Assembly (NCBI GenBank): GCA_017416285.1
Contig: JAFQCU010000025.1
Coordinates: 18,909 to 82,908 of the forward strand
Source: Clostridia bacterium
Lineage (GTDB): Bacteria; Bacillota; Clostridia; Oscillospirales; Acutalibacteraceae
DNA length: 64,000 nt
Reading direction: 5' to 3'
In this document: positions 7,259-64,000 of the stretch, one piece after another
Layout of the letters: each line of letters opens with the position of its first letter
Numbering within the stretch: position 1 is the first letter of the stretch
The notes under the pieces: generated by a model
What the model was told of the DNA's origin: nothing
The model's database searches: none
What the model saw: only the letters and a program-made list of their open reading frames with translations
Made by a program: the position numbers and the translations under genes

Positions 7259-9724
7259 ATGAAATTCTTTTCAAAAAACAAGAACGATGATTCTTACTTA
7301 ATTGAAGATGATGATATTATTGTTACTAAAGCCCCCGCTCCCGAAAACCCTAACGCTTTAACCGTGGACGAGGTTTTAGGCAACAATTTTCATAAGGATG
7401 CCAACGTTAGAAGCACCGGTGCTTTAGATTCGCTAAAAAAACGAATGCTTACTGCAAACGGAAAAATAGAAGAGCCTCAAAGCGAGGATAAAACTCTGCT
7501 CGAAAAATGCCGCCCCTTTATACTTGATGAAAAGGGTCAGGACACCACTAAGAATATTCCGCCTGCATATAAGCTTGAATCGGTTGCAGATATCCTACGC
7601 AAGGATAACGCCGGTGCTGTTGACAGCTTTAATCAAAAGTATGATTTTGAGGCGGATTATTTAGGCAAATACGTTGAAAAGAAGCTTGCTGAAGAAAAAG
7701 AAGCCCCAAAACCGACCCCAAAAACCGCAACATCTGACACTATCGCAATAACCACCGTAAAAAACGCACAAACAAACGTTGCTTTTACAATATCCGATAT
7801 TGACCCGCTTGAGAAAACCACAGTAATCGAACCCGTAAAAGAAAATCAAGATGCCACAGTAACCTTTACACCTGTTGCCAGTGGTGATACTGCACCGGTT
7901 ATTATGGTAAGCAGTAAAACCCAACAAATTGATTTGACGGGCGAAATGGCGATAATGGAGGATATTTCCTCAAATTCATCTACAAGCCGTGTTGAGCTTG
8001 AAAAAAGCGATTTTGATGATTACGTTCCCCAAAACGAAATCAAGTCTGATATCGATTCAAAGCGTTTCTTACGCATTTTTTCAATTAAAAAGCGCAATTA
8101 CTTCCTTATGAGCGCCGCATCCGTATTCTTAACCTTTTTATTGCTTATAATGAAAATGCCCTTTATGACGGGTGCAGTATTAGCGCAAACCAAACCCACA
8201 ATGATTATCTGTGCCGTCTTTTTGGCACTTATTACTGCAGTCAACGGTGATATGCTTTTATCGCTTCAAAATATGCTTAAAGGGCGCTGCAATGCCGATG
8301 TCACCGCCTCTATTTGTGCAATATCGGTTTTAATTTACAGTATTTACGGCATAATCAAAGGTCAAATAATTACTGATTTGTGTCTTTTATGCGCAGTTTC
8401 CTTAACCTTAAGAGCAATAGGTCAATTCCAAAAATATTCCTACCTGCTTTCAAATCTAAAACAAATCAGTAAAAAAACCTCTAAAAAAGCCGTGCGCCTT
8501 TTTAACGACCCTGCAATTACATTTGCAATGGCAAAAAACTCTATTGAAGGCGATGCGCTTATAGCTTCTGCCGTGCCGTGCAACCAAATTGATGATTACA
8601 TTAAGTATTCTACTTACGGCACCTTTTTAAACGGCAAGCTTCCGATCATTACAACGGTTTCATTAGTTTTGTCATTATTAACCTTTTTTGCTACTGCAAA
8701 ATATTTCGGCGGCTTTTATTATGGCTTTTACGCCGCAGCAGCCGTTCAGTGCTTTACTGCACTTCCCGCTCTGTTTTTAATAGATAACCTACCGTTATGG
8801 CAAGCCTCTGCAAAGCTTAACCGCCAAGGCTCGATGATATCGGGCAAGGCCGCTGCAGAACATCTTGAGCTTGCAAACGCAGTTGTCCTTAATTCGGACG
8901 ACCTGTTCCCCGCTGGTACCGTTACCCTTCATAATATGAAGGTTTTATCAGAAAATAATATGAGTGACACGCTTCTTCGTGCCGCATCATTAACACGTGA
9001 GCTTTCAAGTCCCCTGTTCCCCGTTTTTAAGGAAATTATTGGCGATGAAAGCATACAAAATCTGCCGGTGGCAGACACCATAAAATACGAAGAACGAATG
9101 GGCATTTCAGGTTGGGTTGATAATCAGCTTTTATTTATCGGCAACCGCACCATTATGGAGGCCCATGGCATCACCGTGCCCGATATCGAGACTGACCGCA
9201 AAATTTTACGAAGCGGTTACTTCCCCGTTTACGTTGCAACAGAAGACACTGCCGTTGCACTGTTAATGGTGCAATATTCTGTTAGTCCAACCGTCGCAAA
9301 GGAACTGCACCATCTAACTAAAATCGGTGTTACACTTTTGATAAACAATACCGACCCCAATTTAAGCAGTGAAATGATTTGCGACTATCTTGGTCTTTAT
9401 GACGATTCGGTTATGGTTATGACCGCCGCAGGCTGTAATATGCATAAAAGCATTGCCACTAGCGTTGAAAACTGTTCAGCGCCCGCCGCTTTCAGGGGTA
9501 AACAAATTTCTCTTGCAAGGCTTTTAAACTGTGCAAACCGAATACGTAAAAGCAATACGGTACTTACCGTTATGTATATTTTATCTGCCGTACTTGGAAT
9601 AATAACCTTTGCTTATTCATCCTTTACAGCAACAAATACATTAATGAACGGCGGCGCAATTTTACTTTACGCTTTAATTTCCACCGTTTTGACAGTCGCT
9701 CTTTACATTACACAAAAACCATAG
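7259..9724 (+). CDS. P-type-ATPase-like membrane pseudoenzyme, function unknown
   Basis: 821 residues. The first ~270 are soluble, charged and low in structure. Hydrophobic helices follow at about 280-298, 305-325, 335-375 and 460-515, with a final pair near 765-818. The soluble part between about 535 and 745 reads like the N and P domains of a heavy-metal P1B ATPase. GISGWVDNQLLFIGNRTIME resembles the N-domain segment ending LVGNR.LM, and VAKELHHLTKIGVTLLINN resembles the P-domain run before TGDN. The phosphorylation motif DKTGT is replaced by NSDDLFPAGT near 541-550, TGDN by NNTD, and no GDGINDAPAL is present. It therefore cannot form the usual aspartyl phosphate. The fold assignment is inference from local similarity. 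It sits between rlmB and metG in a translation-related operon. Confidence 0.65.
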   Translation: MKFFSKNKNDDSYLIEDDDIIVTKAPAPENPNALTVDEVLGNNFHKDANVRSTGALDSLKKRMLTANGKIEEPQSEDKTLLEKCRPFILDEKGQDTTKNIPPAYKLESVADILRKDNAGAVDSFNQKYDFEADYLGKYVEKKLAEEKEAPKPTPKTATSDTIAITTVKNAQTNVAFTISDIDPLEKTTVIEPVKENQDATVTFTPVASGDTAPVIMVSSKTQQIDLTGEMAIMEDISSNSSTSRVELEKSDFDDYVPQNEIKSDIDSKRFLRIFSIKKRNYFLMSAASVFLTFLLLIMKMPFMTGAVLAQTKPTMIICAVFLALITAVNGDMLLSLQNMLKGRCNADVTASICAISVLIYSIYGIIKGQIITDLCLLCAVSLTLRAIGQFQKYSYLLSNLKQISKKTSKKAVRLFNDPAITFAMAKNSIEGDALIASAVPCNQIDDYIKYSTYGTFLNGKLPIITTVSLVLSLLTFFATAKYFGGFYYGFYAAAAVQCFTALPALFLIDNLPLWQASAKLNRQGSMISGKAAAEHLELANAVVLNSDDLFPAGTVTLHNMKVLSENNMSDTLLRAASLTRELSSPLFPVFKEIIGDESIQNLPVADTIKYEERMGISGWVDNQLLFIGNRTIMEAHGITVPDIETDRKILRSGYFPVYVATEDTAVALLMVQYSVSPTVAKELHHLTKIGVTLLINNTDPNLSSEMICDYLGLYDDSVMVMTAAGCNMHKSIATSVENCSAPAAFRGKQISLARLLNCANRIRKSNTVLTVMYILSAVLGIITFAYSSFTATNTLMNGGAILLYALISTVLTVALYITQKP

Positions 9725-62815: not shown

Positions 62816-62827
62816 TAATACGACAAG

Positions 62828-62862
62828 CCCCCGAAATCATAGAATGATTTTGGGGGTTAATT
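62828..62862 (+). terminator. Terminator of lacZ whose 3' arm contains the sigK ribosome site
   Basis: CCCCCGAAATCAT (62828-62840) pairs, with one wobble, to ATGATTTTGGGGG (62844-62856) over a three-base loop, then a TTAATTTT tail. GGGGG (62852-62856) is also at the right distance to be the sigK ribosome binding site. Confidence 0.75.
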
Positions 62863-62864
62863 TT

Positions 62865-63281
62865 ATGTTTAATTTAATTTTAGAGCTTTTATCCGGTATA
62901 TACTTTTTTGCGCTTCACGTAGTTACTAAGGGTGCGTTTCCCCGCCCGCTTACCGCAGAGGAAGAAAACACACTTTTAGAAAAAAGCCAAAACGGTGACA
63001 TCCAGGCACACAACACCTTAATTGAACACAACCTTAGGCTTGTAGCACATATTGTAAAGAAATACTATGCCACAGGCGCTGACCAAGATGATTTAATATC
63101 TATCGGCACGGTTGGACTTATAAAAGCAGTTTCAACCTTTAAAAGTGATAAAAACATTCGGCTTGCCACCTATGCCGCAAGATGCATTGAAAATGCAACC
63201 CTCTCACAAATGAGTTTTTGGTTACGAAAAGAACTCCCCATTGGAGAATTACCGAGCAGACTGCGGAAAATATGTATATAA
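62865..63281 (+). CDS. sigK: Sporulation sigma factor K, N-terminal part interrupted after codon 110
   Basis: From ATG 62865 the protein has a hydrophobic pro-sequence (about 1-24, LILELLSGIYFFALHVV) and FPRPLTAEEE, then sigma region 2 (IEHNLRLVAHIVKKYY, DQDDLISIGTVGLIKAVSTF, IRLATYAARCIEN). This matches pro-sigma-K of the mother cell. After Asn110 (codon ends at 63194) homology stops; the frame runs on for 28 unrelated residues to a stop at 63279-63281. Regions 3 and 4 are missing. The break lies at the same motif where the skin element splits sigK in Bacillus, so the other half is expected beyond the window, to be joined by excision in the mother cell. Confidence 0.85.
   Translation: MFNLILELLSGIYFFALHVVTKGAFPRPLTAEEENTLLEKSQNGDIQAHNTLIEHNLRLVAHIVKKYYATGADQDDLISIGTVGLIKAVSTFKSDKNIRLATYAARCIENATLSQMSFWLRKELPIGELPSRLRKICI
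63186..63200. other. Putative attachment junction (attL) of a skin-like element in sigK
   Basis: Junction ATTGAAAATGCAACC. The sigK coding sense is lost at or just after GAAAAT. In Bacillus, recombination uses an AATGA core at this codon pair; here the shared part is AATG. Confidence 0.6.
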
Positions 63282-63796
63282 TGTCGCACACCGAAAACGG
63301 TGAAACAAAACATTCTCCCTTGTTTGTTCTTAGCTTTAGACTTATGGCGCCGAGAAAACTGCTCGAAGCACAGTTATTTAACAAGCAATATCATTCTTAC
63401 GAGGATATTGATAACATCCCCGACCGCTTGAGATTTTGCCGACACAAATTAGGTCTTATGCAAAAGGAAGTGGCGCAGATTGTTGGCATTGCTCGTAGCA
63501 CATACATAAATCTTGAAACAGGCAATCATAACGGCTTTGATAAAACTGTAGCGGACAAGCTTTCCAAACTCTATAATATCCCTGTATATGACCTTCTTGA
63601 TGATTACAACCGCTTTATAGCAGTCGGACAGGGCAAACTAATACGAGAGCACCGAGAAAGCCTTAATCTCGGCAAAAGACCGTTTGCTAGGCTTGTTGGT
63701 GTAGATGCTAATATGATTAGACTTTGGGAAAGTGAACGAAAACAAATTAGTCTTAAATCTTGGGAGAAATATTTTAAGGATCGTATCACTCTTTAA
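63272..63796 (+). CDS. XRE-family regulator of mobile-element type, two HTH modules
   Basis: 174 residues if started at ATG 63272 (GGAAAA upstream); ATG 63281 is an alternative three codons later. After SPLFVLSFRLMAPRKLLEAQLFNKQYH (read as SPLFVLSFRL and APRKLLEAQLFNKQYH) it has a first helix-turn-helix (PDRLRFCRHKLGLMQKEVAQ, IARSTYINLE) and a second, HTH-like repeat from ~125 (KLIREHRESLNLGKRPFARL, DANMIRLWESERKQISLKSW). Relatives are common in integrative elements of Clostridia. It lies just inside the sigK junction, so it belongs to the inserted element. A hairpin follows its stop. Confidence 0.82.
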   Translation: MYIMSHTENGETKHSPLFVLSFRLMAPRKLLEAQLFNKQYHSYEDIDNIPDRLRFCRHKLGLMQKEVAQIVGIARSTYINLETGNHNGFDKTVADKLSKLYNIPVYDLLDDYNRFIAVGQGKLIREHRESLNLGKRPFARLVGVDANMIRLWESERKQISLKSWEKYFKDRITL

Positions 63797-63801
63797 TGGA
63801 C

Positions 63802-63832
63802 AACCGCCTCACAAAAAATGTGAGGCGGTCAA
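63802..63832. terminator. Hairpin after the element's XRE gene
   Basis: CCGCCTCACA, five-base loop, TGTGAGGCGG. The T-run is poor on both strands, so termination strength is uncertain. Confidence 0.6.
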
Positions 63833-63843
63833 CTTGTTTCAGA

Positions 63844-64000
63844 CTACTTTTTCTGTTCGGCTTTAATCTGTTCTTTTGTATCTTTTATAATCGCATTAAG
63901 CAGTCTTTCCTTTTCTCTGATTGGGCAATCTAACTTAGAAATGCTATTAAGTACTCCATCGGCGTGAACACCGGCTACACGCCGTCTTAGTTCTCGCCAT
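63844..64000 (-). CDS. C-terminal end of an unidentified element gene (partial)
   Basis: The minus strand is open from the window edge to a TAG at 63844-63846, giving 51 residues that end in a Lys/Glu-rich helix (KERLLNAIIKDTKEQIKAEQKK, read as DTKEQIKAEQKK). No domain can be named. Its position next to the junction is where a site-specific recombinase might be expected, but the visible part does not show it. Confidence 0.5.
   Translation of the reverse strand, partial: WRELRRRVAGVHADGVLNSISKLDCPIREKERLLNAIIKDTKEQIKAEQKK

Follow-up and report, generated by a model that had tools for sequence, protein, structure and literature searches.

A mobile element resident in sigK of gut Clostridia that probably carries its attachment site inside its own large serine recombinase frame

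The sigK gene of this Clostridia genome is interrupted by a skin-like element, and the element resident there probably carries its attachment site attP within the frame of its own large serine recombinase, with a short and a long form of the enzyme. Residence in sigK is of a known kind (skin), and the splitting of the element's own recombinase frame appears to be what is new. The attP would lie between the catalytic part of this frame and its C-terminal two-HTH part. As the sequences show, insertion leaves the frame cut, with the catalytic part ending at the right junction and the HTH part behind codon 110 of sigK. In the excised state, the circle would carry one long-protein frame, and sigK would again be intact in the chromosome.

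The features at the end of the window (the whole stretch of DNA analysed, 64,000 nucleotides) are listed in Table 1. A sequence-only reading had described sigma-K homology up to codon 110 followed by unrelated sequence, and this description was confirmed. Comparison of left and right ends showed that the bases common to both ends at the attL crossover are the AA of the Asn codon. Identity between the window and seven close relatives was 59-86% over the 90 bp to the left of codon 110 and 92-99% over the 90 bp to the right. The sigK junction is a precise boundary and no product of chance. The leftward accessory gene was also found in the genomes G001 and G047, with the G047 homologue lacking a Pfam match. 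The promoter-like motif upstream of sigK is possibly of a mother-cell sigma type. Of 20 given sequences, 16 could be parsed, and 14 of these had CATANNNT in the 90 nt before the parsed start of sigK (letter-shuffle mean 2.5), with some of the parsed starts being internal Met.

Table 1. Features of the interrupted sigK locus in the window
Feature	Position	Strand	Remark
Possible mother-cell-type promoter of sigK (AC...CATAGAAT)	62820..62845	+	
sigK 5' half, codons 1-110	62865..63194	+	ends ...ATYAARCIEN
attL crossover region (GAAAATGC)	63189..63196	+	identity jump and comparison of left and right ends
Two-HTH frame	63191..63796	+	HTH_19/HTH_3 matches, phase at left ends, predicted fold
28-codon foreign extension of the interrupted sigK frame, with stop	63195..63281	+	stop at 63279-63281
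Terminator-like hairpin between HTH frame and leftward gene	63803..63829	.	
Accessory gene of the element, leftward, truncated at the contig end	63844..64000	-	

The genome of the window (G000) is a 1.45-Mb MAG, 85% complete and in 37 contigs. Its contig C22 ends exactly at the end of the window, 806 bases into the element, and the right side of the element is off the contig. The sigK 5' half was present once in this genome and the 3' half was not found in it, an absence that proves little because the MAG is 85% complete. The only two PF07508 recombinases of this genome are encoded on contigs other than C22 (C11 and C30); as candidates for the missing right end they were rejected, having no adjoining sigK 3' half. 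The prediction of a 3' sigK half together with a large serine recombinase, made from the window, was thus borne out in relatives, as described below; in the genome itself neither fitting part was found. The contig end 806 bases into the element and the missing 3' half would also suit an assembly chimera, which had been named as a possible refutation. However, all 12 named relatives show this same junction, as do complete elements assembled on single contigs, and a chimera is hardly credible.

Among the 25 genomes of the same genus, the window's own included, 22 had a match at the level of sigK, and in 20 of these the frame was open over 204-299 aa, the shortest (204 aa) running off its contig. 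The two others, G000 and G001, were interrupted after the same sigK codon. This comparison of genomes, together with eight other genomes that hold both sigK halves and the whole element on one contig, supported the proposal of a skin-like element inside sigK. On the element side, G001 and the window shared 95.3% identity across 802 bp, and the protein of its HTH frame (locus L049) was 100% identical; the protein of its sigK 5' half was 74% identical to that of the window. Since the element is near-identical and the host sigK has diverged, a recent horizontal transfer of the element is suggested. The sigK 3' half of G001 was located at C1:26072 and immediately followed a large serine recombinase containing the domains PF00239 (Resolvase), PF07508 (Recombinase) and PF13408 (zinc ribbon), and joining the two sigK halves by script gave an intact 227-aa frame reading ...RCIENEILMFF... 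across the join. A tyrosine-recombinase (Phage_integrase) gene was also observed near the left end of the G001 element (L040 15069-16022). Ninety-five bases at the end of G001 contig C27 (L040 16462-16556) were identical to an inner stretch of C1 (L041 780-874), which may link the two contigs or represent a repeat.

The HTH frame as a query retrieved 12 loci in named genome contigs, with the same sigK codon interrupted in all 12. By title, six were from Clostridia, five from Oscillospiraceae and one from Alphaproteobacteria, and at least eight came from ruminant gut. The locus titled uncultured Alphaproteobacteria (L052) contained a clostridial-type sigK with the element and is probably a mis-binned contig. 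In 394 genomes of the order, 141 matched at E <= 1e-3, mostly generic XRE proteins by short alignments. Sixteen of the best 20 places in the order (E < 1e-12) were directly behind a sigK 5' half, one was beside a 3' half in inverted orientation, and three were without adjoining sigK. A search of 391 genomes of the class (E <= 1e-15) added 12 new places: five followed a 5' half, a single one adjoined a 3' half, and six had no sigK in the flanks. Four loci were retrieved from viral contigs with an HTH alignment query, two at sigK and two elsewhere; the single-sequence query gave no match in viral contigs, and the HTH query gave none in phages and two weak partial matches in plasmids. One weak partial match (32%), in an Enterococcus faecium plasmid (L164 5001-5435), was beside an insertion-sequence transposase and between insertion sequences near van genes. 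Some ends were arranged differently. In G106 (L161 4663-5317) and G458 (L271), the HTH frame was divergent and adjoined the sigK 3' half, as though the element, or this end of it, had been turned round. In G294 (L160 3164-3605), an intergenic HTH end outside sigK was 96% identical to the left end of the G264 element, and in L174 and L175, an HTH end near position 8001, also outside sigK, was beside a gene that resembled a phage large terminase by eye.

The eight complete elements ranged from 9 to 34 kb (G406, 9.0 kb; G375, 9.6 kb; G047, 12.7 kb; G117, 13.9 kb; G224, 14.0 kb; G113, 22.2 kb; G264, 27.2 kb; G180, 34.0 kb). A search for the sigK 3' half in two sets of relatives found it in 5 of 11 and 14 of 17 genomes, and the 3' halves of the remaining genomes may lie outside the assemblies. 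Scans of selected cargo proteins identified a type IIG restriction enzyme, a match to a TIR-like effector and a DUF3990 protein in G047, a NikA-like mobilization protein and a D5_N domain in G375, and a replication protein in G406. The cargo of G001 included radical-SAM/SPASM proteins, an ABC transporter, AgrB, a sensor kinase and a LytTR regulator. Within this element (L041 3746-16889), the radical-SAM/SPASM proteins, the ABC transporter and the Agr-type system were accompanied by a Cys-rich 86-aa ORF, and this cargo may be RiPP-like.

The evidence for a split recombinase came from the reading phase at the two ends of the elements. At the right ends, the recombinase read toward sigK in the -1 phase and was open at the crossover in 22 of 23 cases, and at the left ends the HTH frame started at the crossover in the matching phase in 33 of 35, counts that are not independent, owing to shared ancestry of the elements and the overlap of the left- and right-end sets. 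The single right-end exception, G106, had no recombinase there. In 18 of the 22 open right ends, the junction itself created a TGA out of the sigK Asn codon AAT and the Glu codon after it, and the recombinase frame ended there, one codon beyond the crossover; the other four had AAC, and the frame continued for 9 codons in three of them and for 39 codons in one. Among the left ends, L112 and L269 were frameshifted, L270 was in phase but met a stop after 53 codons, and L054, L060 and L177 ran off their contigs. The linker between the recombinase body and the crossover varied in length and sequence with the phase kept, and the computed excised circle had one frame of 767-875 codons from stop to stop in all eight complete elements. 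By its reading phase, the two-HTH frame appears to be the detached C-terminal part of the large serine recombinase of the element. The two-HTH XRE gene described from the window thus stood in its HTH content but, by phase, would not be a gene of its own. Computed from both ends and from the phase counts, the attP would lie inside the integrase gene, which integration would split, and the enzyme is bacterial and of the serine type with undivided catalytic domains, not an archaeal tyrosine recombinase with a split catalytic module.

The same elements could be read as ordinary skin-like elements that carry two independent genes, one for the recombinase and one for an HTH regulator, at opposite ends, with a match in phase that has no function. 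XRE-type HTH proteins are indeed common in mobile elements. The best phage match of the recombinase, the integrase of Terrisporobacter phage TPELB_ph1 (39% over 88%; L173 3995-5952), has a gene to itself, and behind it lies a 104-aa ORF, HTH-like by eye; the two are perhaps an unfused relative. However, the phase is kept at nearly all right and left ends despite divergence and changes in length, and selection acts on the HTH part where a start codon is absent, as described below, which makes this explanation improbable. Pattern searches for the attP of an excised circle, with exact patterns that cover part of the family, gave none in the 394 genomes and none in 263 loci. A single attP match in a viral contig was rejected as a chance match, the contig being a phage with structural genes. 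The missing attP match, the defective left ends, the HTH ends outside sigK and the incomplete recovery of right ends weigh against a split recombinase. At least nine frames of about 750-840 aa with weak matches to the HTH query were considered as natural fusions; the four that were retrieved had the HTH at the N-terminus and were AMP-forming ligase-like by eye, and the idea was rejected.

The pattern of substitution also bears on how the HTH part is translated. Over the first 93 HTH codons, loci L109 and L110 differed at 16 synonymous and 11 nonsynonymous sites (pS 0.265, pN 0.050). L110 contained no ATG, GTG or TTG before HTH codon 95, and L109 had a TTG at codon 22. Since the pair shows purifying selection over codons where L110 lacks a usual start codon, the HTH part of these two loci would be best explained as translated within a longer protein. 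In the window and six close relatives, pN/pS over codons 1-27 was 0.21 in the HTH frame, compared with 2.5 for the sigK frame and 0.53 for the remaining one. The HTH frame of the window has possible starts at TTG codon 10 and at ATG codons 28 and 31, and its separate translation is possible. The predicted structure of the HTH part (mean pLDDT 81.2, pTM 0.55) contained strands at residues 19-25, 28-35 and 38-45 followed by two HTH units. Family matches of the HTH part were to XRE/HTH and phage-regulator families only, and its profile matched XRE regulators such as SinR.

These properties have to be weighed against the explanation that the HTH part serves as a recombination directionality factor (RDF) translated from the sigK transcript, which helps the short form to excise the element and, when fused in the circle, blocks re-insertion. 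Its expression would follow from mother-cell transcription of sigK through attL, with the end of the truncated sigK frame overlapping the start codon of the HTH frame. Such overlaps of stop and start were observed as TAATG in the window (63279-63283), TTGA in L055-L057 and ATGA in L058. Artificial integrase-RDF fusions prefer attL x attR over attP x attB (PMC5737554; this and the other papers are cited from excerpts), and the RDF gene of Clostridioides difficile is under mother-cell control (PMC5025042). However, the sigK frame in L102, L105 and L106 ends four codons beyond the crossover, at a place that offers no HTH start, the first 94 HTH codons of L110 offer no ATG, GTG or TTG at all, and a start at ATG codon 28 or 31 would cost part of the predicted fold because the first strand precedes codon 28. 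On balance, an RDF made from the sigK transcript is rather unlikely. Ribosomal frameshifting out of sigK into the HTH frame was also rejected, there being no slippery run common to the set; L057 reads GAC AAT at this place.

Another possibility is that the insertion merely inactivates sigK, without programmed excision, in a lineage whose sporulation is no longer complete. The small genomes of G000 and G001 (about 1.4-1.6 Mb) would agree with this, but both sigK halves are open, the joined frame is intact and the recombinase is open. SpoIVA was present in all five genomes searched, the window's included, and diverse elements use the same sigK codon. Simple inactivation is therefore very improbable.

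On the reading of a recombinase split at its own attP, the short form, alone or aided by another factor, would excise the element in the sporulation mother cell; it must do so because the inserted element encodes only the short form. Where a new host receives DNA alone, the recombinase would be made there from the circle and would be the long form. This long form, encoded by the circle only, would act on entry to a new host or block re-insertion, and its HTH part may promote integration, block re-insertion or act as an RDF. Integration would thereby change the very enzyme needed to reverse it. From the frames at the two ends, we infer that excision and integration would use two forms of one enzyme. 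A further step, which we hold tentatively and rate somewhat below an even chance, is that recombination itself sets directionality: integration into sigK would remove the two-HTH domain and turn the integration form into the excision form, and mother-cell excision would restore both sigK and the long form. If this were true, a separate directionality factor would be unneeded, since excision would restore the long form together with sigK.

The skin element of Bacillus subtilis similarly interrupts sigK and has a serine recombinase (SpoIVCA), which lies beside the sigK 5' half. This element is 48 kb long and prophage-like, with a five-nucleotide core (PMC13141910). Alicyclobacillus phage MMB025 likewise integrates in sigK and has a SpoIVCA-family recombinase near the site; unlike the elements described here, it is an infectious phage, and its site is reported to lie immediately upstream of the integrase gene rather than within it (PMC13141910). 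The skin element of C. difficile resembles the present elements in interrupting sigK and in having a large serine recombinase directly upstream of the 3' half. Its recombinase is CD1231 and its RDF is CD1234, and excision in the mother cell reconstitutes sigK. In contrast to the elements described here, this RDF is a separate 72-aa protein (PMC5025042). The excerpted account of this system (PMC5025042) makes no mention of a recombinase-HTH frame across attP. The gin element in gerE of Bacillus cereus is comparable as a non-phage element in a sporulation gene that is excised by serine recombinase and a helper, but it occupies another gene and has three serine recombinases and a separate factor, GirX (PMC5595907).

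The closest parallel in gene arrangement was in the archaeal suicidal (SSV-type) integrases, in which the attP lies within the integrase gene and integration splits the gene (PMC8371274). These are archaeal tyrosine recombinases whose split is said to separate the N-terminal and catalytic parts (PMC8371274), whereas the sigK elements keep the resolvase, recombinase and zinc-ribbon domains in one piece. Self-splitting integrases were called exclusively archaeal in a 2021 review (PMC8371274), and a serine recombinase with attP in its own gene was not found in the literature searched, mainly titles and abstract openings. Artificial fusions of serine integrases with RDFs are similar in that the fused partner alters direction; unlike the proposed natural enzyme, they are artificial, always fused and not switched by the reaction (PMC5737554).

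Skin elements serve as a textbook example of programmed DNA rearrangement, and the control of direction in serine integrases is an open mechanistic question. The varied cargo, with restriction, TIR-like, radical-SAM, Agr-type, mobilization and replication functions, makes sigK look like a permanent home of mobile islands among uncultured gut spore-formers. If the reading of a split recombinase is true, the question of direction would become directly testable with two natural protein forms of a widespread family, and self-splitting integrases would reach beyond archaea and tyrosine recombinases.
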